A stretch of 64,000 bases of DNA from assembly GCA_020060215.1 (NCBI GenBank), contig JAGVAP010000082.1, positions 155,683-219,682 of the forward strand. The letters are read 5' to 3'. The notes under the pieces were generated by a model, which was not told where the DNA came from, ran no database searches, and was given only the letters and a program-made list of their open reading frames with translations. The stretch is from Deltaproteobacteria bacterium. GTDB taxonomy: Bacteria; Desulfobacterota; DSM-4660; Desulfatiglandales; HGW-15. Position numbers and translations under genes: made by a program. This document shows, in pieces, positions 30,803 through 45,292 of the stretch (position 1 is the stretch's first letter; every line of letters starts with the position of its first letter).

Positions 30803-30938
30803 TCGGTCACGGCAGCACGCCTCGGCCGTTTATGTCGACCAGTATGCTTGTCGCACATCGCGGGAGGTGTGATCCCGATCCGATCTGTATGGCATTGTCG
30901 TATGAGAGAGGGATGATCCTTTTCCGCAGAGGTTTTTC

Positions 30939-30967
30939 TTGACAAAACCTTTTGGTGTGGATATGAG
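30939..30967 (+). promoter_or_regulatory. promoter of the aro supra-operon
   Basis: TTGACA (30939-30944), 17-bp spacer, TATGAG (30962-30967). The -35 is perfect, the -10 matches four of six. Transcription would start near 30974, 22 nt before the leader-peptide ATG and about 320 nt before aroF. Confidence 0.7.
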
Positions 30968-30995
30968 TCTCACCATCTGACGAAAGGCCGTAGAG

Positions 30996-31079
30996 ATGGG
31001 CAGCAGAGTTTTCCACAGCCGGTTTTGGTACTTTTACTTTTATTACGGCGCACCGGTCTGCCCATTGAGGAGGTCATAG
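30996..31079 (+). CDS. aro leader peptide (aromatic-rich attenuator peptide)
   Basis: 27-codon ORF with AAAGG upstream. The peptide is MGSRVFHSR, then FWYFYFYY, then GAPVCPLRRS. Codons 10-17 (31023-31046) are eight aromatic residues in a row, three Phe, one Trp and four Tyr, with Phe6 as well. It sits between a strong promoter and a terminator-type hairpin ahead of aroF, exactly where an attenuation leader is expected. Shortage of any charged aromatic tRNA would stall a ribosome here. No homologue is claimed; the call rests on composition and position. Confidence 0.8.
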   Translation: MGSRVFHSRFWYFYFYYGAPVCPLRRS

Positions 31080-31108
31080 CCGAGTCGGATCAAAAGTAAG
31101 CTAGAACC

Positions 31109-31148
31109 AAGCCATGGACAGATCGAAGATGCTGACCATGGCTTTTTT
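31109..31148 (+). terminator. attenuator terminator upstream of aroF
   Basis: AAGCCATGG (31109-31117) pairs with CCATGGCTT (31136-31144), with an inner CAG/CTG, followed by a T run (31143-31148). An alternative antiterminator is visible: TCTGCCCAT (31057-31065) can pair with ATGGACAGA (31114-31122) with one mismatch, taking away the left arm. CTGCCCAT can instead pair perfectly with ATGGGCAG at the leader start (30996-31003). This gives a 1:2, 2:3, 3:4 set. Confidence 0.7.
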
Positions 31149-31196
31149 GTTTCAGGGGCCATGCCAGCCGGAGCATCCTGCCATGGCCCCTGAAAC
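31149..31196 (+). promoter_or_regulatory. second leader hairpin, 15-bp perfect stem
   Basis: GTTTCAGGGGCCATG (31149-31163) and its exact complement (31182-31196) flank an 18-nt loop, starting directly after the attenuator T run. There is no T tract after it, so it is not an obvious terminator. It may protect the 5' end of the aro mRNA or act in the folding switch, since GCCATG in its left arm can also pair with the terminator's right arm. Confidence 0.6.
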
Positions 31197-31292
31197 TTTG
31201 AGGAGCGCTCAATGGTGCAGGGGGGCGGCCACGGGGATCTCTTTTCAAAAGCGAAGAGGCGCTCGGTAATTCGGATTACGAGGAGGGGAGTC

Positions 31293-32321
31293 ATGAACAT
31301 CATGATGAAGGAGAATGCCACCGGGTCCGAGATCGAACACGTGATCCGGTGGGTCGAGTCCGTGGGCTACAAGGCCAGGCTTTGTCACGGGCCCGCGCGA
31401 ACCGTGGTCAGCGCGATCGGCGACGACCGGCACAAGGACCGGCTCCAGGCGGCGGAGCAGCTCCCGGGCGTGGAAAGGACCGTGCCCATCCGCAAGCCTT
31501 ACAAGCTTGCGAGCCGGGAAGGCAGGGAGGCAGACACGGTCATCCGGGTGGGGAACGTGCAGATCGGGGGCGGCACATTCGTCGTCATGGCGGGTCCATG
31601 TTCGGTCGAGAGCCACGAGCAGATCATGGAGAGCGCCTATGCGGTGATGAAGGGCCGGGCCCATATCCTGCGGGGCGGCGCCTTCAAACCCCGCACCTCT
31701 CCCTACAGCTTCCAGGGGATGGAGGAGGAGGGGTTGCGGCTCCTGAAGGAGGCGCGGGAGAGCCTTGGCCTGCCTTTCATCACCGAGGTGATGAACACCA
31801 TGGATGTGGACCTCGTGGAAGAGTACGCGGATATCCTGCAGATCGGCGCCCGGAACGTCCAGAACTTCCCCCTCCTCAAGAAGGTCGGCCGCATCAGGAA
31901 GCCCGTTCTCCTCAAACGGGGGGTGATGACGACCATCGAGGAGCTGCTCATGTCCGCCGAGTATATCCTCTCCTCGGGCAACGAGGAGGTCATGCTTTGT
32001 GAACGGGGGATACGGACCTTCGAAACCGCCACACGAAACACCCTGGATATCAGCGCAGTGCCGGTCCTGAAGGAATTGACCCATCTGCCCGTCATCGTGG
32101 ATCCCAGCCACGCTGCAGGACACTGGAGATATGTGGCCCCCCTTGCCAAGGCGGCCGTTGCGGTGGGCGCAGACGGCATCCTGGTGGAGGTCCATCCTCA
32201 GCCTGAAAAGGCGGTCTCCGACGGACCCCAGTCCCTGAAGCCGGAGAAGTTCTACCGGCTCATGGAGGATATCCGGACCCTGGAAAGGGTGATGCACGCC
32301 GGGAACATGGCCGCCTCATGA
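31293..32321 (+). CDS. aroF: 3-deoxy-7-phosphoheptulonate (DAHP) synthase, type I-beta with N-terminal regulatory domain
   Basis: 342 aa from ATG 31293 with AGGAGGGG at 31281-31288. First enzyme of the shikimate pathway: PEP + erythrose-4-P to DAHP. Residues 1-75 form a ferredoxin-like domain like that of Thermotoga DAHP synthase, which mediates Tyr feedback. The catalytic barrel carries [10 protein letters not shown] (metal Cys), [34 protein letters not shown] and VDPSHAAG. First structural gene after the aromatic-rich leader. Its TGA overlaps the aroB ATG. Confidence 0.95.
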
Positions 32322-33412
32322 ATCGGATCAAAGTCAACCTCGACAAGCGAAGCGTCCGTTCCTACGAGATCGTGATCGGCAGGGATTTCATGGATCGGGC
32401 CGGCATCATGCTGGCGCAGGGGAACTGGGCGAAGAACTACTTTGTGATCACCGACTCGAACGTGTCGGCCCTTCACGCCGATCGGATCCGGGATCTGCTT
32501 CCGGCCGTGGACCCGGAGATCGCGACGATCGCCTTTCCTGCTGGGGAAAAGTCGAAGGACATCCGGACCGCCCTGACCATCGTAGATGAGCTCATCGCAA
32601 GGGGCGCCGACCGGGAGTCGGGGCTCATCGGCCTGGGGGGCGGGGTCGCGGGGGACATCACCGGCTTTGTGGCGTCCACCTTCATGCGGGGCGTGCCCTA
32701 TGTCCTCATTCCCACGAGCCTGCTGGCCCAGGTGGACAGCAGCATCGGCGGGAAAACGTCCGTCGATCTCCCAGCGGGAAAGAATCTCCTCGGCACCTTT
32801 TGCCAGCCCAGGATGGTCCTCACGGACCTCGCCTTCCTGGGGACCCTCCCGGGGAGGGAGTTCACCAACGGTCTCGCGGAGATCGTGAAGTACGCCGTCA
32901 TCGAAGACCTCGATCTTCTCCGGCTGCTGGAGGAGGGAAAGGAGGGTGTCCTGGGAAGAGATGCGGCGATCATGGAAGCGATCGTGACCAGGAGCTGCAG
33001 GATCAAGAAGGCGATCGTGGAGATCGATGAGAACGAGAGGTCGATTCGCCGGTACCTGAACTTCGGCCACACCATCGGGCATGCACTCGAGGCGGAGTCG
33101 GCGTATACGCTTTCCCACGGCGAGGCGGTGGCGGCAGGGATGGTCGCCGCGGTGAGGATATCGGAGCGAATGGGGTATCTCGCTGCCGGGGAAGCAAGGC
33201 GGATCGAAGCCCTCATCGGCGCGATGGGGCTTCCCGTCCGCACCCCGCAAGGGGGTTCGACCGAATCGGTCCTGTCGCGCCTCAAGGTGGACAAAAAGAA
33301 GTCCGGGGACAGGGTGCATTTCGTGCTGCTGAAGAGCCTGGGGGTCCCCTTCGTGAACGGAAACGTACCGGAGTCGATGATCGGAGAAGTCCTGGAGGAG
33401 TTGAAGACATGA
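32318..33412 (+). CDS. aroB: 3-dehydroquinate synthase
   Basis: 364 aa, normal length. Converts DAHP to 3-dehydroquinate using NAD+ and a divalent metal. Seen: [21 protein letters not shown] (NAD-binding), [23 protein letters not shown], the metal-ligand Glu in [13 protein letters not shown], and metal-ligand histidines in [11 protein letters not shown] and [15 protein letters not shown] overlaps with aroF upstream and pheA downstream indicate tight translational coupling. Confidence 0.96.
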
Positions 33413-34488
33413 ACCCGGGGAGCCTCGAGAAGATTCGTGAAGAGCTGGGAAGAGTGGATCGGGAGATCCTGAGGATGCTGAACGAGCGGGCTCGCCTCGT
33501 CACCGAGGTGGGCCGGGTCAAGAATGAACTCGGGCTGGAGGTATACGATCCCTCCCAGGAAAACAGGGTGTACGCCCGGCTCAGGGAGGCCAACGAGGGT
33601 CCTATGCCGGATGCAGCCGTGGTCCGCGTGTTTCGCGAGATCATCTCCTTCTCCAGGGCCCTTCAGACCAAGGTGACGGTCTCCTGCCTTGGACCCGAGG
33701 CCTCCTACACCCATCAGGCCGTCCTCTCCCATTTCGGCCGGGGCGTGGAGCTGTTGGCCGGGCAGACGATCGCCGAGGTGTTCGGGGGGGTGGAAAGGGG
33801 CGACGCCTCCTGGGGTGTGGTCCCGGTCGAAAACTCGCTGGAAGGTTCGGTGAGGCAGACCCTGGATCTTCTGGCGACTACACCGGCCGCGATCCGCGCC
33901 GAGATCCATCTCCGGATCTCCCACTCTCTGCTTGCCGCACACCGCAGCAAGTCGCGGATCCGAAAGATCTACTCCCATCCCCAGGCCTTTGCCCAATGCC
34001 GACGGTGGATTTCAACCCATTTCCCCAGGTGCGTACTCGGGGTGTCGGAGAGCACGTCCGCCGCGGCCCGACAGGCCCTGAACGACCCCCAGGCCGGGGC
34101 GATTGCCGGGGCCTTCGCCGCAGAGCACTACGGGCTGCAGATCCTCGCCGACGGGATCGAGGATCAGCCCGGCAACACGACACGCTTCCTGGTGCTGGGA
34201 AAGGGGGAGTCCGACCCCACAGGGGATGACAAGACCTCCATCCTCTTCTCGACCCGCCACAAGCCGGGGGCGCTCTTCGATGCCCTGAGGCCTCTGGCCC
34301 GAGGCCGCATCAACATCACCAGCATCGAGTCGAGGCCCGCCAGGAACCGCAGGTGGGAGTATCTCTTCTACCTGGATATCGAGGGGCACCGAAGGGAGGA
34401 GACCATCGCGAAGGGGTTGCGGGATATGGAGGCCGGGACCTCCTTTTTCAAGGTTCTGGGCTCATACCCCAAAGGAGAAGCGGTGTGA
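33409..34488 (+). CDS. pheA: bifunctional chorismate mutase / prephenate dehydratase (P-protein)
   Basis: 359 aa. Residues 1-88 are an AroQ chorismate mutase (VDREILRMLNERARLVTEVGRVKN). About 92-270 form prephenate dehydratase (CLGPEASYTHQAV, VPVENSLEGSVRQTLDLL, DQPGNTTRFLVLG with the catalytic Thr). About 275-355 form an ACT domain with GALFDAL and ESRPAR, the Phe-binding motifs for feedback inhibition. It makes phenylpyruvate. The mutase is found only here in the window and would also supply prephenate to tyrA. Confidence 0.95.
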   Translation: MNPGSLEKIREELGRVDREILRMLNERARLVTEVGRVKNELGLEVYDPSQENRVYARLREANEGPMPDAAVVRVFREIISFSRALQTKVTVSCLGPEASYTHQAVLSHFGRGVELLAGQTIAEVFGGVERGDASWGVVPVENSLEGSVRQTLDLLATTPAAIRAEIHLRISHSLLAAHRSKSRIRKIYSHPQAFAQCRRWISTHFPRCVLGVSESTSAAARQALNDPQAGAIAGAFAAEHYGLQILADGIEDQPGNTTRFLVLGKGESDPTGDDKTSILFSTRHKPGALFDALRPLARGRINITSIESRPARNRRWEYLFYLDIEGHRREETIAKGLRDMEAGTSFFKVLGSYPKGEAV

Positions 34489-35273
34489 GGCTTTGTGTCC
34501 CCATCCTGGCAAAGAGCACCCAAGAGGCGCTTCGCAAGATGGAACGGCCCTATGGACTCCCCCGACCCATCGAGATCATACTCGAGTTGCGTTTGGACTG
34601 GATCCGGGATCCGGACCCGGAGAAGCTCCTGAGACGAAGACCGGGCAAGCTCCTTGTCACGAACCGGAGAAGGGAGGAGGGGGGCCTCTTTTCGGGAACG
34701 GAAGAGGAGCGTGTGACGATCCTCGGACGGGCGGCAGCCTCTGGGGCCGATTACGTGGACATCGAGGCGAGCACCGGGCCGCGCCTCGTGGCTGGACTGA
34801 AGAAGGAGATCGCCAATACCCCAGGGAAAAGTCCCAAGCTCGTGGTCTCGTGGCACGATTTCCAGAAGACCCCCTCGGAGCGCCTCCTGAGGGAGAAGCT
34901 CGCCGGGTGCGGGGAATGGTCGCCCGATATCGTGAAGATCGTGACCATGGCGCGGACCGTGGAAGACAACCTGAAGATCCTCCGTCTCATCCCCTACGCC
35001 CGCCGAAAGGGGATGGAGGTCATCGCGTTCTGTATGGGACCTGCAGGGAGGATCAGCCGGGTCGCGTCGGTCCTGCTGGGCGGGTACCTGGGGTTTGCCG
35101 CCGCGGATGGACACGAGCGGTCCGCACCGGGACAGATGCCGGTCCGTGAAATGGCAAGGATCCTCCGAATGCTGGGTTCGAGCCCTCTTGCCGGTCCCAC
35201 GCTCCGGCTTCCTGCGCACGGGCGCCGGAGCGTCCAAGCGAAGCGTTCCCACGCGGGAGCGCGGGAACGGTAA
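34485..35273 (+). CDS. aroD: 3-dehydroquinate dehydratase, type I
   Basis: 262 aa from GTG 34485, which overlaps the pheA stop (GTGTGA) and has AAAGGAGAA upstream. Class I Schiff-base enzyme: catalytic His in VVSWHDFQKTP, catalytic Lys in PDIVKIVTMA, and phosphate/substrate Arg in MGPAGRISRVA. The canonical fold ends near MARILRMLG. The last ~24 residues, starting with TLRLPAHGRR, are translated from a double-hairpin repeat (35199-35268) and the TAA follows directly. The native C-terminus therefore appears replaced by repeat-coded sequence. Confidence 0.93.
   Translation: MRLCVPILAKSTQEALRKMERPYGLPRPIEIILELRLDWIRDPDPEKLLRRRPGKLLVTNRRREEGGLFSGTEEERVTILGRAAASGADYVDIEASTGPRLVAGLKKEIANTPGKSPKLVVSWHDFQKTPSERLLREKLAGCGEWSPDIVKIVTMARTVEDNLKILRLIPYARRKGMEVIAFCMGPAGRISRVASVLLGGYLGFAAADGHERSAPGQMPVREMARILRMLGSSPLAGPTLRLPAHGRRSVQAKRSHAGARER
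35199..35268. repeat. double-hairpin repeat, family F, copy 1
   Basis: ACGCTCCGG (35199-35207) pairs with CCGGAGCGT (35225-35233); then GTTCCC (35245-35250) pairs with GGGAAC (35263-35268). The same two-hairpin unit recurs in the same orientation at 36343-36410, beyond aroE. Confidence 0.8.
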
Positions 35274-35365
35274 GAGAGGGCGGGAGCGTGGGAAGGATGA
35301 GAAAAGCAGAGGCATTGAAGGGTAAGGTATCGAAGCGGAGCGGACGCAGTGAACGGGAAGGAGAT

Positions 35366-36214
35366 ATGACAACGGCCCTTCAGCGCTACGCCATCATCGG
35401 GAACCCTCTCGGGCACAGCCTCTCGCCCCTCATGCACAACACGGCCTACAGGGCCATGGGCATGAACGCCTCCTATGAGGCGTTGGAGACACCGGACCTG
35501 CAAGAGGCGATCGCGACGATCCGCGAGCGGGACGTCCGTGGGGTGAGCGTCACCATCCCCTTCAAGGAATCCGTCCTCGCCCATCTCGACGAAGTGGATC
35601 CCGACGCCCTTCGCATCGGCTCCGTCAACACGTTGACCAGCAGGAACGGGCGATTGCTGGGAAGCAACACGGACTGGCCCGGGCTGAGGAGGGACCTTCG
35701 GGGTCGATGGGAGATCAGGGGAAATACGGTCGCGATCCTGGGCGCCGGGGGAGCGGCCCGGGCCGCCGTGTATGCCATCCAGCAGGAGGGGGGCATGCCG
35801 GTAATCGTGAACCGCACCGGCAGCAGGGGAGAGACGCTTGCCGAGCAGTTCGGGTGCGCATCCCTGCCCCTCTCCGAGATCGGATCCCTCCGTGCCGCAG
35901 GCCTGATCAACACCACTTCCGTGGGCATGATGCCCCGTGCGGACGAATCGCCGGTCCCGGCACGCCTGCTTTCACGGTTCCGATGGGTGGCGGATATCGT
36001 CTACAACCCTCCACTCACCCGGCTTCTCGCGGAGGCAAGCACCGCAGGATGTGAGACGATCACTGGAATAGGGATGTTCGTGAACCAGGGTGCGGAGCAG
36101 ATCCGGATCTGGACCGGCAGGCCTCCCCCGCGGCAGCTGATGAGGCGGGTGGTGGAGGAGGCGTTGAAGAACGGAAGTCAGCGGGGCCGCTTGCCGCTGA
36201 GGCGGCAAGATTGA
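35366..36214 (+). CDS. aroE: shikimate dehydrogenase
   Basis: 282 aa from ATG 35366 with GGAAGGAG upstream. Reduces 3-dehydroshikimate with NADPH. Seen: IIGNPLGHSLSPLMHN (substrate-binding), VTIPFKE with the catalytic Lys, GSNTDWPG with the catalytic Asp, ILGAGGAARAAVYA (NADP loop) and VYNPPLT. The final residues (RGRLPLRRQD) are coded by a small perfect hairpin CTTGCCGC-TGAG-GCGGCAAG (36190-36209). The gene is bracketed by two direct copies of repeat family F and separated from aroD by 92 bp, unlike the other overlapping junctions. Confidence 0.95.
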   Translation: MTTALQRYAIIGNPLGHSLSPLMHNTAYRAMGMNASYEALETPDLQEAIATIRERDVRGVSVTIPFKESVLAHLDEVDPDALRIGSVNTLTSRNGRLLGSNTDWPGLRRDLRGRWEIRGNTVAILGAGGAARAAVYAIQQEGGMPVIVNRTGSRGETLAEQFGCASLPLSEIGSLRAAGLINTTSVGMMPRADESPVPARLLSRFRWVADIVYNPPLTRLLAEASTAGCETITGIGMFVNQGAEQIRIWTGRPPPRQLMRRVVEEALKNGSQRGRLPLRRQD

Positions 36215-36249
36215 TCGAGGAGGAATTTTCTACGCTCTTCTCTTCTGGA

Positions 36250-36310
36250 GGAGCAAGCTCCTGCTCGATTCTTCTGGAGGTTAAAGGGATCGCAAGCAGG
36301 AGCTGGCTCC
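36250..36310. repeat. inverted repeat in the aroE-aroA gap
   Basis: GGAGCAAGCTCCTGCT (36250-36265) and AGCAGGAGCTGGCTCC (36295-36310) are complementary at 15 of 16 positions. Part of a 391-bp gap made of repeats and a gene relic inside the operon. Confidence 0.65.
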
Positions 36311-36342
36311 TATAGTGGGTCAAGTTGGGAACGCGCGTTCGG

Positions 36343-36410
36343 GACGCTCCGGGGGGCCTGCGCACGGAGGCCGGAGCGTCCAGGATCGTTCCCCCGCGGG
36401 AGCGTGGGAA
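36343..36410. repeat. double-hairpin repeat, family F, copy 2
   Basis: GACGCTCCGG (36343-36352) pairs with CCGGAGCGTC (36371-36380), followed by a GTTCCC...GGGAA hairpin (36388-36410). Same order and orientation as copy 1. Confidence 0.8.
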
Positions 36411-36430
36411 GATCAGAGAGAGGGCGCGAG

Positions 36431-36585
36431 ATGGGCATCACGAATGTGCTGGCCAGCATCTCCTCCCTCAACCCCGGGAGCATCGGGTTTCATCGAAAAA
36501 ACGGCTTCGTCGAGTGCGGTCGTTTCAGGAAGGTGGGCGGGAAGAATGGGCAAGAGTTCGACTCGTTATGGATGCAGAAGACCCT
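36431..36585 (+). pseudogene. C-terminal relic of a GNAT (phosphinothricin-type) acetyltransferase
   Basis: The frame from ATG 36431 reads LASISSLNPGSIGFHRKNGF, then VECGRFRKVGGKNGQEFDSL, then WMQKTL. This is the C-terminal third of PAT-type N-acetyltransferases (N-x-x-S-I-x-F-H-x-K-x-G-F, then GRF-x-x-VG, then WMQ). Nothing upstream provides the N-terminal acetyl-CoA domain, and the frame runs on into aroA without its own stop. It is a truncated remnant stranded in the operon. Confidence 0.7.
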
Positions 36586-36605
36586 CAGGAACCGGCCGTC
36601 GCGAG

Positions 36606-37862
36606 GTGAAGCCTGCGGGCCCCCTGCAGGCGGTCGTCCGACTGCCGGGATCCAAGAGCCACACCCAGAGGGCGCTGGTGATCGCGGCCCTTGCCGAGGG
36701 CGTCTCGATCCTGAGGAACGGACTTCGCTCGGAGGATACCGAATACCTGATCCGGGCCCTGAGCTCGCTCGGTGCCCGGATCTCCGGGCAAGGCGATGAT
36801 CTGCGCGTGGAGGGGACAGGCGGCCGCATCCGGAACCCGGGCAGGGAGATCTTCCTTGGGAACAACGGGACGGCCATGCGCTTTCTCACGAGCCTGGTCT
36901 GCCTGGGCTCCGGTTCCTTTACGCTCACCGGGGACGCGCGTCTTTGTGAACGGCCCATGGGGCCGCTGTTGGACGCGCTCTCGCTGCTCGGCGCGGAATA
37001 CCGCTGCCTGGGCCGTGCCGGTTGTGCGCCCTTCGACCTAAGCGCTTCCTCCCTCTCGGGAGGGGAGGTGGTGTTCAGGGGAGACGAGAGCAGCCAGTAC
37101 ATTTCCTCCCTGATGCTTTCGTCCCCCTATGCGCGCAAGGAGACGGTGGTCGAGGTCTCCGGGACCGTGCTTTCGAGGCCCTATGTGGATATCACGGTCC
37201 AAGCCATGGATCGGTTCGGGGTGTCCGTGACCGAGGAGAGGCCGAATCGATTCAGGGTGCCTGCAGGCAATCCGTACCGGGGGCGGGAATATACGATCGA
37301 GCCGGACGTTTCCAGCGGCTCCTACCTTTTTCTCGCCGCGGCCTTGTGCGGGGGATGGGTCAGGGCGGAGAACCTGGACCCCGCGAGTCGGCAGGGCGAC
37401 ATGCGTTTCCTGGAGATCCTGGAGGAGGCGGGTTGCTCGGTCATCCGGGGTCAGGACGCCATAGAGGTCCGGGGAGGGGTCCTCCTTCCCGGAGACATGA
37501 CCATCCCCATGGGAGACATGCCGGACATGGTCCCCACCGTGGCGGCACTTGCCGCATGCAGACAGGGCCGCACGACCATCGAAGGGGTTCCTCACCTCCG
37601 CTTCAAGGAGAGCGATCGATTGTCGGCAGTGGCGGCGGAGCTGGGAAGGGCGGGGATACGCGTGGAGGAACGGCCGGACGGGCTTGTCGTCGAAGGGGGC
37701 ATCCCGAGGGGGGTGGAGATAGAGACGTACAAGGACCATCGGATCGCCATGAGCTTCGCCGTGCTGGGGCTGGTGGCGCCCGGCATGAAGATCAGGGATC
37801 CTGGATGCGTGAGGAAGTCGTTTCCGGGGTTCTGGGAGATGCTGGAGGGGTTCTACCGGTGA
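36606..37862 (+). CDS. aroA: 3-phosphoshikimate 1-carboxyvinyltransferase (EPSP synthase)
   Basis: 418 aa from GTG 36606; an ATG at 36546 in frame would add 20 residues of relic sequence. Transfers enolpyruvyl from PEP to shikimate-3-phosphate. Seen: VRLPGSKSHTQRALVIAAL, FLGNNGTAMRFLTSL, DARLCERPMGPLLDAL, RFKESDRLSAV and YKDHRIAMSFAVLG. The GTG overlaps the TGA of a 13-codon reading frame (GTGA) and has no clear Shine-Dalgarno, so initiation may depend on coupling. GTGA overlap with aroK downstream. Confidence 0.94.
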   Translation: MKPAGPLQAVVRLPGSKSHTQRALVIAALAEGVSILRNGLRSEDTEYLIRALSSLGARISGQGDDLRVEGTGGRIRNPGREIFLGNNGTAMRFLTSLVCLGSGSFTLTGDARLCERPMGPLLDALSLLGAEYRCLGRAGCAPFDLSASSLSGGEVVFRGDESSQYISSLMLSSPYARKETVVEVSGTVLSRPYVDITVQAMDRFGVSVTEERPNRFRVPAGNPYRGREYTIEPDVSSGSYLFLAAALCGGWVRAENLDPASRQGDMRFLEILEEAGCSVIRGQDAIEVRGGVLLPGDMTIPMGDMPDMVPTVAALAACRQGRTTIEGVPHLRFKESDRLSAVAAELGRAGIRVEERPDGLVVEGGIPRGVEIETYKDHRIAMSFAVLGLVAPGMKIRDPGCVRKSFPGFWEMLEGFYR

Positions 37863-38398
37863 ACATCGTCCTGATCGGATACCGCGCCACGGGAAAGACA
37901 TCGGTGGGCCGAAGGCTGGGCGCCCGTCTCGGAGTCCCATTCCACGACACGGACGAGGTCGTTGCGCTGAGGACGGGGAAGTCCGTTCGGGAGCTGGTGG
38001 ACAGGGGCGGCTGGAGGCTGTTTCGTGAAGAGGAGAGAAGCGCCGTGGCCGCTGTCTCCGGATTGGACGGCTGCGTGATTGCCCTTGGAGGCGGGGCCGT
38101 CCTGGACGAGGAAAACGTGCGCCGCCTCGGCCGCAAAGGGTTGTTCGTCTGGCTCAGGGCGGATGCCGGGACCATCGTGAGACGCATGGGGGAAGACCGA
38201 GGCAGCGGGGACCAGCGCCCGCCCCTCAGCGGCAGCGACAGGGGGGAAGAGACCCCTGAGCTGCTGCGGTCCAGAGAAAGGAGCTATGAGAACATCGCGC
38301 ATTTTGCCGTGGAGACGGCGGAACGCGGCATCGAAGAGGTATGCGAGGCAATTGTGCGCTGGATGCGTATTGAAGTAAGGCACCTTTCATTTGAGTGA
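37859..38398 (+). CDS. aroK: shikimate kinase
   Basis: 179 aa from GTG 37859, overlapping the aroA stop. Phosphorylates shikimate at O3. Walker A is LIGYRATGKTSVGRRL, the shikimate-binding Asp is in FHDTDEVV, and ALGGGAVLDEENV and the RPPLS lid region follow. Order in the operon (aroA before aroK) is the reverse of pathway order. Confidence 0.94.
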   Translation: MNIVLIGYRATGKTSVGRRLGARLGVPFHDTDEVVALRTGKSVRELVDRGGWRLFREEERSAVAAVSGLDGCVIALGGGAVLDEENVRRLGRKGLFVWLRADAGTIVRRMGEDRGSGDQRPPLSGSDRGEETPELLRSRERSYENIAHFAVETAERGIEEVCEAIVRWMRIEVRHLSFE

Positions 38399-38404
38399 GG
38401 AGAA

Positions 38405-39460
38405 ATGGCCGGCAGCAGCATCGGATCCGTGTTTATCGTGACCACCTGGGGTGAATCCCACGGCCCGGCGCTTGGGGCCGTTGTGGACGGCTGCCCGTCG
38501 GGCATGGGGCTCTCACCGTCCGACATCCAGCAGGAACTGGACCGCCGCAGGCCCGGCAGGGGGCCGGGAACCACGGCCAGGCATGAATCGGACAGGGTCG
38601 AGATCCTTTCGGGAGTCTTCGAGGGAAAGACCACCGGCACGCCCGTCAGTCTTCTCATCCGGAACGCGGATGCGGACCCCTCGGCCTATGAGCCCATGAA
38701 GGACATCCTCCGCCCAGGCCACGGGGACTACACCTATCTCAAGAAATACGGCCTGCGGGACCACCGCGGGGGCGGCAGGGCTTCAGGGAGGGAGACCGCC
38801 GCGCGCGTCGCGGCCGGTGCGGTAGCGCGGAAGGTGATCGGCCTGGAGGGGATCGCGGTCACGGCCTACACCAGGGAACTGGCCTCCGTACGGATCCGGA
38901 GGTTTTCCATGGAAGAGGCCGGCATGAATATCTTTCGATGTCCGGACCTCGAGGCGGCTGCACGCATGGAGATCGCCGTGGCACAGGCCCGCCGGGAAGG
39001 GGATTCAGTGGGAGGGGTCGTGGAGGTGCTCGTCCGGGGCTGTCCCGCCGGGCTCGGGGAGCCGGTCTTCGACAAGATGGACGCAGACCTTGCCAAGGCG
39101 CTCATGAGCATCGGCTCCGTAAAGGGGGTGGAGATCGGGGCCGGGGTCGAGGCCGCCCGCATGAAGGGCTCCGAGTGCAACGATCCCATCCGTCCCGACG
39201 GATTCCTCTCGAACAACGCCGGCGGGATCCTGGCCGGGATCACCACGGGCCAGGATCTGGTGATCCGGGCCTCATGCAAGCCGATCCCCTCCATCGCCAT
39301 CGAGCAGGAGACCGTCGACATCTCCGGAAACCCGGCGAAGATCCGGGTCGGGGGAAGGCACGATGTCTGCGTCATCCCGAGGATCCTCCCGGTGTGCGAG
39401 GCCATGGTCTGCATGGTCCTGGCAGATCACCTCCTGAGACAAAAAGCGGTCAAGCGATAG
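38405..39460 (+). CDS. aroC: chorismate synthase
   Basis: 351 aa with GTGAGGAG 7 bp before the ATG. FMN-dependent 1,4-elimination of phosphate from EPSP to chorismate. Seen: TTWGESHGPALGAVVDGCPSG, RRRPGRGPGTTARHESD, RPGHGDYTYLKKYGLRDHRGGGRASGRETA split across the FMN region, and GRHDVCVIPR. The stop at 39458-39460 is immediately followed by a family A palindrome. It supplies the branch-point metabolite for pheA, tyrA and trpE in the same cluster. Confidence 0.96.
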   Translation: MAGSSIGSVFIVTTWGESHGPALGAVVDGCPSGMGLSPSDIQQELDRRRPGRGPGTTARHESDRVEILSGVFEGKTTGTPVSLLIRNADADPSAYEPMKDILRPGHGDYTYLKKYGLRDHRGGGRASGRETAARVAAGAVARKVIGLEGIAVTAYTRELASVRIRRFSMEEAGMNIFRCPDLEAAARMEIAVAQARREGDSVGGVVEVLVRGCPAGLGEPVFDKMDADLAKALMSIGSVKGVEIGAGVEAARMKGSECNDPIRPDGFLSNNAGGILAGITTGQDLVIRASCKPIPSIAIEQETVDISGNPAKIRVGGRHDVCVIPRILPVCEAMVCMVLADHLLRQKAVKR

Positions 39461-39516
39461 CCAAGACACAAAGGCGCGCAGAAGAGTCGTGGTCCTTTGT
39501 GGCTTCGTGTCTTGGT
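39461..39516. repeat. dispersed palindromic repeat, family A, copy 1
   Basis: CCAAGACAC (39461-39469) pairs with GTGTCTTGG (39508-39516); longer imperfect pairing includes AAAGG/CCTTT. Sits between aroC and tyrA. Confidence 0.75.
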
Positions 39517-39532
39517 GGCAAGAGGTGTTCTT

Positions 39533-40291
39533 ATGAAAAAAACCCGCATCGGCATCGTCGGCGGCACCAGGGGGATGGGGAAATGGTTTGCGGAGTACCT
39601 CATGGAAAAGGGGTATGCCGTGGAGGTCCTGGGGAAAGGAGGAGAGTGTGAGATCCCCGCGCTGGCTGCCCGTTCCCATGTGCTCGTCGTGGCGGTCCCC
39701 ATAGCCGCGACCATCGAAACCATCAGGAACGCGGGTCCCCACATGGCGGCTGATGGTCTGCTCATGGACCTCACCTCTCTCAAGGCGGAGCCCGTGAAAG
39801 CGATGCTGGAGCACTCCAGGTCGGAAGTGATCGGACTCCATCCCTTGTTCGGCCCCGGCGTTCCGACCCTACGGGAGGAGAACGTCTTCATCTGGCCGGC
39901 CAGGTCCGGGAGGTGGCTCCCGTGGCTCAGGTCCATGCTCCTGCATGACGGGGCGCGGCTGGTGGAGACGACCCCGGAGAAGCACGACGAGATGATGGGC
40001 TATGTCCAGGTCCTCACCCATCTGAGCACGATCGCAGCAGGGCTGGTGCTCAGGGAATCCGGGATCGGGCAAGAGGAGTTTTGGAGATTCTCGACCCCTG
40101 CCTTTCGCGCAGGCTTGGAGAGGCGGGACAAGATCTTTCTCACCAACCCCCGGCTCTACGGCGAACTGATTGCACTCAATCCCAAGGCCGGAGCCGTCGC
40201 AGAGGCATTCGAAAGGAATCTCTCGCGCGTCAGGGGTGTCATCGAAGGGCGGGGGGCGGAAGGGCTCATGGAGTTGATCCAAGAAGCCTGA
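39533..40291 (+). CDS. tyrA: prephenate dehydrogenase
   Basis: 252 aa from ATG 39533. Oxidative decarboxylation of prephenate to 4-hydroxyphenylpyruvate. The N-terminal Rossmann motif is RIGIVGGTRGMGKWFAEYL. VLVVAVPIAATIETI, the catalytic His region EVIGLHPLFGPGVP, and HDEMMGYVQVLTHL with a second conserved His follow. It is monofunctional (no mutase, no ACT), shorter than E. coli TyrA, so it relies on the pheA mutase for prephenate. Last gene of the aro half. No Phe/Tyr transaminase gene is present in the cluster. Confidence 0.92.
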   Translation: MKKTRIGIVGGTRGMGKWFAEYLMEKGYAVEVLGKGGECEIPALAARSHVLVVAVPIAATIETIRNAGPHMAADGLLMDLTSLKAEPVKAMLEHSRSEVIGLHPLFGPGVPTLREENVFIWPARSGRWLPWLRSMLLHDGARLVETTPEKHDEMMGYVQVLTHLSTIAAGLVLRESGIGQEEFWRFSTPAFRAGLERRDKIFLTNPRLYGELIALNPKAGAVAEAFERNLSRVRGVIEGRGAEGLMELIQEA

Positions 40292-40335: not shown

Positions 40336-40364
40336 TTGACAGGTATGGGAACGGTTGGTATAAC
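40336..40364 (+). promoter_or_regulatory. promoter of the trp operon
   Basis: TTGACA (40336-40341), 17-bp spacer, TATAAC (40359-40364): eleven of twelve consensus positions. Start of transcription expected near 40371, about 15 nt before the leader ATG. Confidence 0.8.
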
Positions 40365-40385: not shown

Positions 40386-40466
40386 ATGTTCGTGAATCGA
40401 ATCGTGTACAAGCTGAACAACTGGCGCTGGTGGCGCAATTCCGGGGAGGGGTTCGTCCACCGCTGA
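40386..40466 (+). CDS. trpL: trp leader peptide
   Basis: 26-codon ORF preceded by AGGAGA. Peptide MFVNRIVYKLNN, then WRWWR, then NSGEGFVHR. Three Trp codons lie within four codons (40422-40433). Position between a near-consensus promoter and a terminator ahead of trpE makes it a trp attenuation leader. GGTGG within the Trp codons (40429-40433) can pair with CCACC (40457-40461), the usual 1:2 protector. Confidence 0.85.
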   Translation: MFVNRIVYKLNNWRWWRNSGEGFVHR

Positions 40467-40483
40467 CGCTTATGGTTTGAATC

Positions 40484-40521
40484 AAGGCCGTGGAGGATCT
40501 CTCAAACTCCACGGCCTTTTT
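40484..40521 (+). terminator. trp attenuator terminator
   Basis: AAGGCCGTGGAG (40484-40495) pairs with CTCCACGGCCTT (40507-40518), a 12-bp stem with an 11-nt loop, followed by a T run (40517-40521). The left arm GTGGA can alternatively pair with TCCAC at 40456-40460 near the end of the leader ORF, giving an antiterminator when ribosomes stall on Trp codons. Confidence 0.8.
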
Positions 40522-40530
40522 GTTTCTCTA

Positions 40531-40565
40531 GGAAAGGGCCGTGAACACCACGGCCCTTTCCTTTT
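40531..40565 (+). terminator. second trp leader hairpin with short T tract
   Basis: GGAAAGGGCCGTG (40531-40543) pairs with CACGGCCCTTTCC (40549-40561), a 13-bp stem with a 5-nt loop, then TTTT. It lies 10 bp before trpE. Its GGCCGTG arm can also pair with CACGGCC of the first terminator, so the two hairpins can compete. Confidence 0.7.
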
Positions 40566-40575
40566 GGGGGATACG

Positions 40576-42062
40576 ATGTACAGCCCGGATTTGGAGACGT
40601 TCAGAGCGCTTGCGAGAAAGGGGAACCTGATCCCCGTGTACAGGGAGATCCTTGCGGATACCATCACGCCCGTCCTTGGGCTCATGAAGCTGCGCTCCCG
40701 GCCGAACCTCTTCCTCCTCGAGAGCGTGGAAGGGAGCGAGAAGTGGGGACGGTACTCTTTTCTCGGCACGGAGCCGCACTGCACCTTCAGGGTCCGCGGC
40801 GACGAGGTCCTGATCCAGGACATGGGCGGGACCCGGTCCATCAAACACCACGGAGACCCTCTGCAATGTCTGAAGGAGACGCTGAGTCGGTTCAGACCCG
40901 TCATCGTACCCGGTCTTCCCCGTTTCTTCGGAGGGGCCGTGGGATACCTGAGCTACGACATGGCGCAGTACTTCGAACGGCTTCCGGACACGCCAGCCCC
41001 GATACCGAAGGGGACGACGCGGCCTTCTTCATCACGGACACCCTGCTGGTCTTCGACAACGTGAGACACACGATCAAGGTCGTCTCCTGCGCCCTGGTGG
41101 AAGGGGTGGAAGACCTCCGTCGAGTCTACGAAGAAGCATTGGGGAGGATTGAAAGCCTGATCTCCGACCTGCTTCAGCCCGAAAGCGCAAGGGAGGAAGA
41201 ACCTCCGGCCCCCGACAGGAAGCCGCTCTTCTCTCCGGAAGTACCGTCGGCGGTCTTCAAGTCGATGGTGAAGAAGGCCAGGGAATACATCCTGGCCGGA
41301 GACGTCATCCAGGTGGTCCTCTCCCAGCGGTTTCGGCATGAGGGGGTGATCGAACCCGTGGACCTCTACCGCGCCCTCCGCTACATCAATCCTTCGCCCT
41401 ATCTCTTTTACCTCCAATTCGACGACCTCACCATGATCGGCTCATCGCCGGAGGGGATGGTCCGCATCGAGGACGACGTGGTGGAGCTCAAGCCCATTGC
41501 AGGCACCAGGCCGCGAGGAAAGACCGAGCAGGAGGACCGGCGGCTGGCGGATGAACTGCTGCAAGATCCGAAGGAGCGCGCGGAACATGTGATGCTGGTC
41601 GACCTCGGGCGCAACGACCTGGGGCGGATCGCCGCCACGGGGAGCGTACAGGTCACCCAGCTCATGGCCGTGGAGAGGTATTCCCACGTGATGCACCTGG
41701 TGTCCAACATCAAGGCCTGCCTGGACGATGGGAAGGACAGCTTTGATGTGGTTCGCGCCACCTTTCCGGCCGGGACCCTGAGCGGCGCACCGAAGATCCG
41801 GGCCATGGAGATCATCGAGGAGCTGGAGCCCTCGCGCCGCGGCCCCTACGGCGGTGCGGTCGGGTATTTCAGCTACAGCGGGAACATGGACCTCTGCATC
41901 ACGATCCGAACGATCCTGATCCGCGGACACCGCGTCCATGTCCAGGCAGGGGCGGGGATCGTGGCGGACTCGGATCCGGAGCGTGAGTACGAAGAGGTGA
42001 TGCACAAGGCAAGAGGAGTCATGAAGGCGGTGGAGATGGCGGCAGGGGGATTGAGAGTATAG
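40576..42062 (+). CDS. trpE: anthranilate synthase component I, with apparent -1 frameshift
   Basis: Chorismate + Gln to anthranilate with TrpG. Frame 1 from ATG 40576 encodes the N-terminal part ([40 protein letters not shown]). Frame 3 carries the rest to TAG 42062 ([69 protein letters not shown]). The frames join at a CCCC run (40997-41000); one extra C would restore [20 protein letters not shown]. Read literally, translation stops at 41062-41064 after 162 residues. Sequencing or assembly error, or a real mutation. All other trp genes are intact. Confidence 0.85.
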
Positions 42063-42139
42063 AAGAGTCCTTTCTCCTTGCGGCAGAAGGTACGACCAAC
42101 TATCGACAACGAACCACCAACACCCAAAGGAGGTTCCCA

Positions 42140-42736
42140 ATGATCGTCGTCATCGATAACTATGATTCATTCACCTACAATCTGGTGCAGTACTTTGCCG
42201 GGTTCGGCGCGGAGTCCCGGGTCTTTCGCAATGACCGCATCAGCGTGGAGGAGATCGAGGCCATGGCCCCGGAGGGGGTCCTGCTCTCCCCGGGGCCCTG
42301 CTCGCCCCGGGAGGCGGGAGTCACCGTCGCAGTGATCCAGGCCCTCCATGAAAAGGTCCCGATGCTCGGTGTATGCCTGGGGCATCAGTCGATCGGGGTT
42401 GCCTTCGGCGGGAAGGTCGTTCGTGCCGATCGGGTCATGCACGGCAAGACCTCCCCGGTCCGCAGCGATGGAAAGACGATCTTCGAGGGGCTGCCCGATC
42501 CCTTCGAGGCCGGCCGCTACCATTCGCTTATCCTCGAAAGGAGATCCCTGCCGACCTCTCTGACGGTCACGGCCGAGACGGATGAGGGGGAGATTATGGG
42601 GATTCGCCACAGGGAGTACCCGGTCGAGGGCATCCAGTTTCATCCGGAATCGATCCTCACCCCTCAAGGGAAGAGGATCATCCGCAATTTCTTGAAGCTG
42701 GTTGGCCACCAAGACACCAAGACACGAAGAGTATAA
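42140..42736 (+). CDS. trpG: anthranilate synthase component II (glutamine amidotransferase)
   Basis: 198-aa class I glutamine amidotransferase that feeds ammonia to TrpE. Seen: [28 protein letters not shown], nucleophile Cys in [10 protein letters not shown], and the His/Glu pair in [14 protein letters not shown]. The last ten residues ([10 protein letters not shown]) are translated from a family A palindrome, and the stop lies in its loop. AAAGGAGG ribosome-binding site. Confidence 0.95.
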
Positions 42737-42761
42737 GATTCTATGCGCCTTCGTGTCTTGG
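42717..42761. repeat. dispersed palindromic repeat, family A, copy 2
   Basis: CCAAGACACGAAG (42717-42729) and CTTCGTGTCTTGG (42749-42761) form a perfect 13-bp inverted repeat; arms extend with CCA/TGG outward. It spans the trpG stop codon. Confidence 0.85.
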
Positions 42762-42799
42762 TGGCGGAAGGGATTTCCAAGGAAAAGGAGCATTCGACC

Positions 42800-43810
42800 A
42801 TGATCAGGGAAGCGATACCCATGGTGGTGGAGGGAAGGGACCTGTCGGAGCAGGAGATGATGAGCGTCATGAGCGAGGTGATGGAAGGGCAGGCGACCTC
42901 CGCCCAGATTGCCTCTTTGGTGACCGCGCTCCGGATGAAGGGGGAGACGGTGGAAGAGATTACCGGGGCCGCGAGGATCATGCGCAGGAAGGCCACCTTC
43001 ATCGACGCCCGCTCGTCGATGGTGGTGGATACCTGCGGTACGGGGGGCGACCACCGCAACACCTTCAATATCTCCACGACCGCTGCGTTCGTGGCGGCGG
43101 CTGCCGGGCTGACCGTGGCGAAACATGGCAACCGCGCCGTGTCCAGCGGGTGCGGGAGCGCGGATGTGCTCGAGGCCCTCGGCGTCCGGATCGAGGCCCC
43201 GCCCGATGTGGTCGAGGAATGCGTCCGGGAGATCGGCATCGGGTTCCTGTTCGCCCCCAGGCTCCACGGGGCCATGAAGTACGGCCTGGGACCGAGGCGG
43301 GAGATCGGTATCCGGACCATCTTCAACATGCTGGGGCCCCTCACCAACCCGGCCGCGGCCTCGGCCCAGGTGATCGGAGTCTACGACAGGGAGCTCACGG
43401 AGGTCTTCGCAGGCGTTCTCAAGAGGTTGGGCACCAGGAGGGCCTTCGTGGTCCACGGCTGGGATGGGCTGGATGAGGCCACCGTTACGGGGAAAACGCG
43501 GGTATGCGAGCTGAGGGACGGCATCACCTCCACTTATGACATCCACTCCGCGGATCTGTTCGGCGAGGTCTATCCGCTCGAGTCCCTGAAGGGAGCGGAT
43601 GCGAGCACGAACGCGGAGATCGCCAAAGGGGTGCTCTCCGGGAAGGATGGGCCGCCCCGCAAGGTGGTCTTACTGAACGCCGCGCTCGCGATGATGGCCG
43701 GGGAAAAGGCCGAGTCCATCCGTGAGGGGATCGCCATGGCCGAGGAATGCATCGATTCCGGCGCAGCGCGGAGGAAACTCCAGGCCCTGATCGAGTGGAG
43801 CAACGGCTGA
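42800..43810 (+). CDS. trpD: anthranilate phosphoribosyltransferase
   Basis: 336 aa from ATG 42800 with AAAAGGAG upstream; the frame extends to 42743 through repeat sequence. Transfers phosphoribosyl from PRPP to anthranilate. Seen: VVDTCGTGGDHRNTFNISTT (PRPP loop), AKHGNRAVSSGCGSADVLEALG and FNMLGPLTNPA. Not fused to trpG, unlike in enterobacteria. Confidence 0.95.
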   Translation: MIREAIPMVVEGRDLSEQEMMSVMSEVMEGQATSAQIASLVTALRMKGETVEEITGAARIMRRKATFIDARSSMVVDTCGTGGDHRNTFNISTTAAFVAAAAGLTVAKHGNRAVSSGCGSADVLEALGVRIEAPPDVVEECVREIGIGFLFAPRLHGAMKYGLGPRREIGIRTIFNMLGPLTNPAAASAQVIGVYDRELTEVFAGVLKRLGTRRAFVVHGWDGLDEATVTGKTRVCELRDGITSTYDIHSADLFGEVYPLESLKGADASTNAEIAKGVLSGKDGPPRKVVLLNAALAMMAGEKAESIREGIAMAEECIDSGAARRKLQALIEWSNG

Positions 43811-43811
43811 C

Positions 43812-44579
43812 GTGGATATCCTCGAACGAATCGTGGCGGCCAAGAGAGGCGAGGTGGAGTCGGAGAAGAACGGTCTGCCCCTGGAGGCGTTGAGACGTCT
43901 GCTGCAGGAGCGCCCTTGCAGGGATTTCGAGGCGGCCCTCCGTGAGAAGAGGCGTGCGATCATCGCAGAGGTCAAGCGGAGGTCCCCGTCCAAGGGCACG
44001 CTCAGGGAGGATGTGGACCCCGTCCTCAGGGCGGTTGAGTATGAGCGGTGCGGGGCGGCTGCCGTGTCGGTCTTGACCGAAAAGACCTTCTTCGGAGGCG
44101 GCAAGAGGGATCTCATTGCGGTGAAGGAAAACACCGGGTTGCCCGTGCTGAGGAAGGATTTCATCATCGATCCGTACCAGATCTACGAGTCGAAGCTCAT
44201 CGGCGCCGACGCCGTGCTCCTCATCGCAGGGTTGCTCGGGTCCGAGCTGAAGGGGTTCCTGCGGCTTGCCGAGACCATGGGCATGCACTCCCTGGTGGAG
44301 GTCCATTCAAGAGAGGATCTCGCCGCGGCAGTGAGGGCAGGGGCCCGGATCGTCGGGATCAACAACCGGGATCTCCGTACGTTTCATACCGACATCCGGC
44401 GGACCCTCGATCTGGCACCCCTTGTTCCGGAGGGGGCGGTCGTGGTCTCCGAGAGCGGGATCCGGTCGAAAAAAGAGATCCGCAGGCTCACGGACGGCGG
44501 CATCCATGCCTTCCTCGTCGGGGAGGCGTTCATGAGGGCGGATGACATGGACGCAAAGTTCAGGGAGCTGCTGGCGTGA
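43812..44579 (+). CDS. trpC: indole-3-glycerol-phosphate synthase
   Basis: 255 aa from GTG 43812, 1 bp after the trpD stop. Ring closure to indole-3-glycerol phosphate in a TIM barrel. Seen: IIAEVKRRSPSKG with the catalytic Lys, VSVLTEKTFFGG, LPVLRKDFIIDPYQIYES, LVEVHSREDL, GINNRDLRTF and VVSESGI. Separate from trpF. Overlaps trpF start (GTGA). Confidence 0.95.
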   Translation: MDILERIVAAKRGEVESEKNGLPLEALRRLLQERPCRDFEAALREKRRAIIAEVKRRSPSKGTLREDVDPVLRAVEYERCGAAAVSVLTEKTFFGGGKRDLIAVKENTGLPVLRKDFIIDPYQIYESKLIGADAVLLIAGLLGSELKGFLRLAETMGMHSLVEVHSREDLAAAVRAGARIVGINNRDLRTFHTDIRRTLDLAPLVPEGAVVVSESGIRSKKEIRRLTDGGIHAFLVGEAFMRADDMDAKFRELLA

Positions 44580-45229
44580 CAGAGGTGAAGATCTGCGGGA
44601 TCGGGAACCGGGAAGATGCAATCGCTGCATGCGAGTGCGGGGCCGATGGAGTGGGTTTCGTCTTCTACGACAAGAGCCCCCGCTTCATCTCGCCGGAAAA
44701 GAGCCGGGAGATCATTGAGCGGCTCCCCGGGGACGTGGCCAGGGTGGGGGTCTTCGTCGACGAGGACCCGAGGGTCGTCCGCCGCGTCTTCGAATACTGC
44801 CGCCTCGACTATATCCAGCTCCACGGCAATGAGTCCGTTGATTACTGCCGCGGGTTGCCTCCCGGGGTCGTGATCAGGGCCATTTGTCCTCAGAGGGCGG
44901 AGTCTATGGCAGGGCTCGATCGGTGGACGGTTCGCGCATTTCTGATGGATGCACCGGACCCGGTCCGGCGCGGCGGCACGGGCAACCGTTCGGACTGGGG
45001 GGTGGCCAGGGAGACGGCTAGGATCTACCCCCTCATCCTGGCCGGAGGGCTGAAGCCTGAGAACGTGCGATCTGCGATCGAGGAAGTCTCCCCCGCAGCC
45101 GTGGACGTGGGGAGCGGGGTCGAATCGGCGCCTGGAAAGAAGGATCATGAGAAGATCCGGGCCTTCATGGAGGGGGTGCGGCGTGCGGACGGCGGCACCG
45201 GTCGAAGGATCTTTGACACGAATAGATAG
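44576..45229 (+). CDS. trpF: phosphoribosylanthranilate isomerase
   Basis: 217 aa from GTG 44576. Amadori isomerisation of PRA. Seen: VKICGIGNREDAIAACECGADGVGFVFYDKSPRFIS split by the catalytic Cys-Gly region, IQLHGNESVDYC, LILAGGLKPENV and VDVGSGVESAPGKKDHEKI with family phosphate-loop residues. The first motif has ICGIGN where ICGITR/N is typical. The stop overlaps the left arm of a family B palindrome. Confidence 0.94.
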   Translation: MTEVKICGIGNREDAIAACECGADGVGFVFYDKSPRFISPEKSREIIERLPGDVARVGVFVDEDPRVVRRVFEYCRLDYIQLHGNESVDYCRGLPPGVVIRAICPQRAESMAGLDRWTVRAFLMDAPDPVRRGGTGNRSDWGVARETARIYPLILAGGLKPENVRSAIEEVSPAAVDVGSGVESAPGKKDHEKIRAFMEGVRRADGGTGRRIFDTNR

Positions 45230-45274
45230 CGCAAAGAGGAAACGTCCCCTTCGCGAACTTTGCGCTTTGCGGTT
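45228..45274. repeat. dispersed palindromic repeat, family B, copy 3
   Basis: AGCGCAAAG (45228-45236) pairs with CTTTGCGCT (45258-45266), and the element ends CTTTGCGGTT like the other family B copies. It fills the trpF-trpB gap. Confidence 0.75.
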
Positions 45275-45292
45275 CAAGACTCGTGGAGGCGA

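Follow-up and report, generated by a model that had tools for sequence, protein, structure and literature searches.

The whole stretch of DNA analysed here (64 kb, hereafter the window) carries on one strand the genes of the common aromatic pathway followed by those of tryptophan synthesis, with a promoter-like site, a short leader reading frame and two hairpins ahead of each of the two sets. The promoter-like sites and the aroF leader frame were read in the sequence. The features of this region, with the hairpins of the aroF leader given further below, are:

30939..30967, + strand: sigma-70-like promoter, TTGACA-17-TATGAG (TTGACA at 30939-30944, TATGAG at 30962-30967)
30982..30987, + strand: Shine-Dalgarno-like GAAAGG, a putative ribosome-binding site eight bases 5' of the leader ATG at 30996
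30996..31079, + strand: leader peptide ORF, 27 aa, MGSRVFHSRFWYFYFYYGAPVCPLRRS and then a stop
31023..31046, + strand: putative regulatory codon run F-W-Y-F-Y-F-Y-Y, residues 10-17 of the leader ORF
31293..32321, + strand: aroF, type I-beta DAHP synthase, ATG at 31293 (PRK08673 and TIGR01361 above cut-off; DAHP_synth_1 and ferredoxin-like DAHP_snth_FXD domains)
32318..40291, + strand: aroB, pheA (chorismate mutase/prephenate dehydratase), aroD, aroE, aroA, aroK, aroC, tyrA
40336..40364, + strand: trp promoter-like site, TTGACA-17-TATAAC
40386..40466, + strand: trp leader peptide, 26 aa, MFVNRIVYKLNNWRWWRNSGEGFVHR, with WRWW codons at 40422-40433
40484..40525, + strand: trp terminator T1, stem 40484-40518 with a U-rich tail after it
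40531..40565, + strand: trp hairpin T2, stem 40531-40561 with TTTT after it
40576..47342, + strand: trpE (in two frames), trpG, trpD, trpC, trpF, trpB, trpA (trpC and trpF being assigned solely by their translations)

The trpE gene (40576-42062) is split over two frames, its N-terminal part running to about 41046 and its C-terminal part lying in another frame, which reflects either a frameshift or an assembly error.

An aromatic leader peptide conserved upstream of aroF

The leader ORF, with its start, stop and ribosome site, sits between the promoter-like site and aroF, and nowhere else in the window, in any of the six frames, do six or more aromatic codons follow one another as they do in its FWYFYFYY stretch; 100 dinucleotide shuffles produced no such run. 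An earlier note on this DNA had described a promoter, a 27-codon ORF with an eight-codon aromatic run and a terminator with a T run ahead of aroF, and every coordinate proved exact; it had also given the trp genes a second switch of their own, for which a promoter-like site, a WRWW leader and two putative terminators were indeed found. A generic scanner for promoters and terminators flagged neither at the aroF leader, the promoter because TATGAG lacks the T that the scanner's rule demands at position 6, and the terminator (T1, below) probably because its bulged stem breaks the rule for stem and loop. Folded alone, the leader has ordinary stability (z = −1.76, with 11 of 200 shuffles equally stable), and the support for this putative element is comparative and does not come from its single-sequence fold.

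For this comparison, the best 80 of 326 relatives in an AroF scan were kept, giving 81 loci with the window; their record titles name Syntrophaceae, Syntrophales, Smithella, unclassified Deltaproteobacteria and similar, along with one Desulfobacterales (L075) and one Nitrospirae (L080). Parsing required only segment 2 of the RNA (defined below), with the remaining segments taken as best matches, and succeeded for 73 of the 81 loci, the window included. Eight loci were dropped: four had short upstream sequence (L056, L066, L070, L076), while four had at least 250 nt upstream, namely L038, L047 and L055, with no recognisable segment 2 (L047 has a stretch of N there), and L080, which was dropped by name. 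The gene order aroB-pheA-aroD-aroE follows aroF in 64 of the 79 relatives with sequence past aroF, and in most of the remaining 15 the stretch is too short or one gene is missing from it. A search of 12 genomes turned up five in which the RNA family matches again 8.5-10 kb further downstream, with contig and strand unchanged; four of these five second matches were examined, and all four are Trp leaders.

All 72 other parsed loci have leaders similar to that of the window, the series extending to a relative with 67% AroF identity (L075). Of the 73 loci, 72 also have a TTGAC 5' of segment 2, the window among them. The 16 codons 5' of segment 2 hold six to ten aromatic residues per leader, with F and Y present in every one of the 73 and F, W and Y together in 69, the leaders without W being L006, L009, L012 and L075. 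Among the T-initial codons of the same 16, 562 of 627 are aromatic and 65 are not, and F, Y and W swap at single positions (at position −9, for example, 32 F, 30 Y and 4 W), which indicates a constraint on the amino acids that goes beyond a U-rich RNA; the cluster of end-product codons is conserved as amino acids. In 67 of the 73 loci, the last aromatic codon stands two or three codons 5' of the GTC in segment 2. It could be argued that the ORF arose by chance in a U-rich leader RNA, and the run is U-rich. This reading was nevertheless ruled out by the shuffles and by the aromatic bias among T-initial codons, and with the leader also kept down to 67% AroF identity we consider it next to impossible.

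Alternative RNA structures and a putative attenuator of the common pathway

Downstream of and overlapping the ORF, the leader RNA holds segments that can pair in alternative ways:

30996..31003, + strand: segment 1 (AUGGGCAG, at the leader start codon), pairing with 31058-31065 in a duplex of −15.6 kcal/mol
31055..31065, + strand: segment 2 (GGUCUGCCCAU), whose partner is either segment 1 or the left arm of T1
31109..31148, + strand: terminator T1, with left arm 31109-31124 (segment 3), right arm to 31144 (segment 4) and six T at 31143-31148

The three alternative pairings drawn in the earlier note are found in the window as duplexes 1:2, 2:3 and 3:4 (−15.6, −15.4 and −19.0 kcal/mol, respectively). 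Across the 73 parsed loci, the T1 left arm stays within one mismatch of its consensus word in 72 and the right arm in 70, compared to 63 and 60 for the left and right arms of a second hairpin, T2, and 46 for segment 1, which follows its consensus more loosely than the other segments do (two or three mismatches of eight in 27 of the 73 loci). The best duplex with any upstream 14-mer averages −12.8 kcal/mol over the 73 loci, as a maximum over many places that carries no control. Peptide changes between MDR/VCP and MNR/VCL were considered as compensation in 1:2 and rejected, in that the MNR/VCL letters do not restore pairing.

Pairing was then scored in an alignment of 49 rows, comprising 24 close relatives including the window and 25 wider hits (48 of 55 prepared references plus the window). 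For the antiterminator 2:3, 89.8% of 537 cells are paired, a level reached by four of 500 shuffles and well above slid controls (32-42%); its covariation is modest, with two-sided change in five pairs (45 of 500 shuffles) and in 14 cells (4 of 500), and its further pair types are matched by 173 of 500 shuffles. For the terminator 3:4, 94.1% of 577 cells are paired (0 of 500 shuffles), and two-sided change affects 65 cells (0 of 500) and seven pairs (34 of 500). A T run stands behind T1 in 72 of the 73 parsed loci. An intrinsic terminator thus lies 5' of the first gene, together with an antiterminator that excludes it and covaries modestly. When the RNA is folded from segment 2 through T1, the T1 left arm joins the right arm in 40 of the 73 loci and segment 2 in another 18; since T1 beats the antiterminator at equilibrium, a switch would have to act kinetically, with the antiterminator forming first during transcription.

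We posit that this leader is, very probably, a ribosome-mediated transcription attenuator that reads the supply of Phe, Tyr and Trp jointly and gates the aro part of the cluster at its first enzyme. The earlier note had offered the attenuator reading and had named an aromatic-rich ORF and a terminator in the aroF upstream regions of close relatives as its check; both were found in the 73 loci parsed out of 81, and the parts expected of an attenuator are in place and conserved. We infer stalling, termination and the amino acids sensed from the sequence, its conservation and its capacity for pairing, assuming typical ribosome footprint distances. When charged tRNA-Phe, -Tyr or -Trp is scarce, the ribosome would halt somewhere within the eight-codon run (31023-31046), leaving segment 2 (31055-31065) free to capture the T1 left arm at 31114-31124; with the antiterminator formed, T1 would not fold, and aroF and the genes behind it would be transcribed. 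When all three are plentiful, the ribosome would reach the UAG at 31077-31079 and cover segment 2, so that T1 would form and transcription would stop. If the leader is not translated, segment 1 would pair with segment 2, and T1 would form as well. A ribosome stalled on the run has already passed segment 1, which is hence unmasked at that moment; this counts against the attenuator reading, segment 1 being masked by the stalled ribosome in the classical layout of E. coli trpL. Here, the role of segment 1 is probably to form 1:2 before or without translation. The trp genes, in turn, would answer to a second switch of the same build at 40386-40565 that responds to tryptophan only.

Since a shortage of any one of the three charged tRNAs should lead to the same stall, the leader should behave like an OR gate for the common pathway, and the bacterium probably opens the whole aromatic pathway when any of the three amino acids runs short. 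If this is correct, one peptide monitors an entire branched pathway at the entry that its branches share, one of these branches has a further switch tuned to a single amino acid, and the shared trunk comes under end-product control via the speed of translation. E. coli instead uses separate feedback-controlled isozymes and repressors.

Two other explanations bear on which signal the leader senses. The first is that it answers mainly to one amino acid (e.g., Phe or Tyr) with the mixture being incidental, as in Corynebacterium aroR, where excerpts of the published account describe a Phe-Tyr-Phe leader that responds to Phe and not to Tyr (PMC11802643). Consistent with this, the runs are made up mostly of Tyr and Phe (284 Y and 196 F versus 82 W in the 73 leaders), and in 28 of 65 wider leaders (see below) at least one of the three aromatics is absent from the piece examined. 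Against it, W is retained in 69 of the 73 leaders despite having just a single codon, and at varying positions, and we therefore judge a one-amino-acid response unlikely. The second is that the RNA is a riboswitch, a T-box or a protein-bound leader and the ORF is incidental, for which the conserved RNA segments and the presence of a terminator might speak. No Rfam family, the trp, phe and other leader families included, gave a covariance-model match in the window at the gathering threshold, by which a known Rfam leader was also rejected, and even at E-values up to 5 the stretch 30930-31300 returned one below-threshold match, to a microRNA family. The conserved RNA outside the ORF, moreover, consists of the antiterminator and the terminators, and the run bears a strong coding signal, making a riboswitch-type explanation very improbable. 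A joint reading of the three amino acids by the translating ribosome remains the account that we prefer.

A second hairpin and its possible linkage to T1

Just behind T1 lies a further hairpin:

31150..31195, + strand: second hairpin T2 (segments 5 and 6), with 14 perfect outer pairs and, in the window, no T run

Among the 73 parsed loci, T2 is followed by a T run (at least five T among the eight bases 3' of the hairpin) in 67, and its end lies at most 40 nt from the start of the aroF match in 66. The six loci that lack this T run include the window and L001, and in L061 and L073 a T run lies three bases further 3'. In the aroF leader of the window, CTTTGAGG follows the hairpin at 31150-31195, so that T2 does not look like a working terminator; having no T run and being very stable (−30.8 kcal/mol), T2 may here be a mere hairpin.

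The arms of T1 and T2 are alike, which makes the T1 right arm (segment 4) able to pair with the T2 left arm (segment 5). This suggests an extension of the joint attenuator, in which the antiterminator 2:3 would free segment 4, segment 4 would pair with segment 5 and T2 would be disarmed too, so that both terminators would switch together in the manner of dominoes. We hold this extension to be plausible, if somewhat short of an even chance. In its favour, the 4:5 duplex averages −20.3 kcal/mol in the 73 loci, close to T1 (−21.9) and T2 (−21.6), and partners from the same locus pair better than permuted ones (z = −6.6, 0 of 5000 permutations); the same test gives z = −3.1 for 2:3, −10.0 for 3:4 and −14.5 for 5:6, whereas the control 3:6, which similar arms should favour equally, averages −13.95 kcal/mol and is uncoupled (z = +0.7). 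The coupling persists when the set is thinned to AroF identities below 90, 85 and 80%, leaving 40, 28 and 11 representatives (0, 0 and 11 of 5000, respectively; z = −4.1 with the 28). However, these permutations leave the relatedness among loci in place, and other arm pairs show coupling as well, namely 2:5 (13 of 5000, z = −2.8), 2:4 (57, z = −2.3), 3:5 (498, z = −1.3) and 4:6 (762, z = −1.0); with the 11 representatives, the control 3:5 is also low (53 of 5000).

A wider set of 46 loci, made up of 38 of the first 40 loci from across the phylum (two duplicates were dropped) and eight sister leaders, yielded a similar but fainter picture. In 33 of the 46, T1 and T2 are no more than 70 nt apart, and every one of the 33 has a 4:5 duplex of −13.7 to −23.3 kcal/mol; T2 was not found in the other 13, and the coupling is weaker and less specific (4:5, 1; 4:6, 12; 3:6, 181 of 5000). 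The complementarity of the T1 right arm and the T2 left arm thus exceeds that of the controls in close relatives, and does so less clearly and less specifically in the wider set. Folding likewise points in both directions: folds that begin past the T1 left arm and stop short of the T2 right arm contain 4:5 in all 73 loci, but once T2 is complete it prevails in 55 of the 73, with 4:5 in 18. The T2 of the window, with no T run behind it, has a stem (−30.8 kcal/mol) much stronger than the 4:5 duplex there (−17.5 kcal/mol), while the trp leader of the window has a like layout, its T1 right arm and T2 left arm pairing at −20.6 kcal/mol. Taken together, a linked terminator pair is possible, being kinetically feasible and comparatively supported though unproved; if it is real, it would provide an added means of sharpening an attenuator.

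Related leaders across the phylum and comparison with known attenuators

Among 395 genomes of the phylum, at least 187 were matched at E ≤ 0.001 by an RNA model (R1) built from 61 of the 73 loci, leaders of other operons included; the E-values are rough, and stricter filters drop weak matches. In the phylum to which L080 belongs, one of 24 genomes gave a match (L217), which was weak, showed no visible leader and was rejected. Among the matches listed, 80 phylum hits were sampled, 60 in order after the top eight (omitting four rows of genomes already seen) and 20 weaker ones. By best tblastn hit, the first gene behind them is a type I-beta DAHP synthase in 30, an ADH synthase in 27, a type I-alpha DAHP synthase in six, aroK-aroC in two and an ABC binding protein in seven, with none assigned in eight. 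Taking as peptide the most aromatic frame near each match, 64 of the 65 leaders before DAHP synthase, ADH synthase or aroK have at least five aromatic residues in nine, and 37 of the 65 show all three aromatics within the piece examined. As similar leaders precede first-step enzymes of different Pfam families (DAHP_synth_1 and DeoC), the regulation seems tied to the pathway step and not to the gene. A viral carrier was also considered and set aside, six pattern matches in a viral collection including none that is a relative by tblastn.

Sister leaders fit the gene that they precede, with W runs before trpE and iorA and F runs before the ABC binding protein, and leaders rich in I/L/V, upstream of ilvB and leuA, were matched by a model from which the codon run was omitted (R2). 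The candidates of this Ile/Leu/Val type, whose terminator core is similar, are L207, L209, L213 and L214, of which L209 precedes an acetolactate synthase gene and L213 a 2-isopropylmalate synthase gene. Phe-run leaders (e.g., FFSFFGFF, FYFFVFF) stand before a branched-chain-type periplasmic ABC substrate-binding protein in L089-L092, L147, L176, L184 and L216, those of L089-L092 having two terminators each, and possibly reflect Phe-regulated uptake; four of the seven sampled ABC-binding-protein rows (L155, L157, L159, L164) have only four or five aromatic residues, arranged in two of the four rows as short Phe runs. L093 (match at 756-875) has a leader of four Trp codons and a terminator upstream of the alpha subunit of indolepyruvate ferredoxin oxidoreductase, an enzyme usually regarded as one of breakdown, and is a candidate for Trp attenuation of that gene; the called ORF starts 366 bases past the match. 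L179 has a WWW leader with a segment-2-like sequence before a 297-aa ORF and L150 an aromatic leader, GYYFYWFWYAKVYPP, before a 500-aa ORF, neither ORF having an NCBIfam match at E = 1e-15; the L150 contig holds a second model match 2 kb downstream. Among the R1 and R2 matches, L095 and L098 precede the gene for a 2-oxoacid:acceptor oxidoreductase gamma subunit without an aromatic leader, and L206 and L215 are apparently not leaders of the aromatic-attenuator kind.

From these leaders, we tentatively suggest, with some doubt, a class of switches extending through much of the phylum, in which one RNA chassis (GGUCUGCC plus a GCCRUGG terminator) carries interchangeable codon runs (F/W/Y, W, F or I/L/V) ahead of pathway-entry enzymes of different families, mostly with two terminators linked through the T1 right arm and the T2 left arm.

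The mechanism itself is classical ribosome-mediated attenuation, and joint sensing has a counterpart in the ilvGMEDA leader, which reads several amino acids. The earlier note had known of no described example with the triple composition, and in the open-licence PMC literature, mostly judged from titles and the beginnings of abstracts, we recognised neither a composite Phe/Tyr/Trp leader nor linked tandem terminators in an attenuator; the statement holds for the three amino acids together within that literature, but a partial precedent is the Phe-Tyr-Phe leader before Corynebacterium aroF (PMC11802643). In excerpts of the two reports concerned, the aroR-aroF region of Corynebacterium glutamicum has a leader peptide with aromatic codons before a DAHP synthase gene (PMC4046766, PMC11802643), its codons being Phe-Tyr-Phe only and its response being to Phe limitation and not to Tyr limitation, as opposed to the three aromatics of the leader described here. 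The uORFC-13-1 motif of Acholeplasma lies upstream of aroF and combines a uORF of at least one Phe codon with a terminator (PMC8632094); the excerpted description counts 24 representatives from one genus and environmental sequences and describes no aromatic mixture or second terminator. A composite leader for Ile, Leu and Val together is given in an excerpt on the Corynebacterium ilvB uORF (uORFC-75-1; PMC11109978), which differs from the aroF leader in pathway and phylum and for which that excerpt describes one terminator. Among enterobacterial operons, trpL, pheL and ilvL are presented in part of a further source as ribosome-mediated attenuators (PMC1183508). Like them, the aroF leader has a short ORF, codons for the end products and alternatives of protector, antiterminator and terminator; unlike them, it combines Phe, Tyr and Trp in one leader and places segment 1 at the start codon, and most of its parsed relatives have a second, cross-complementary terminator.
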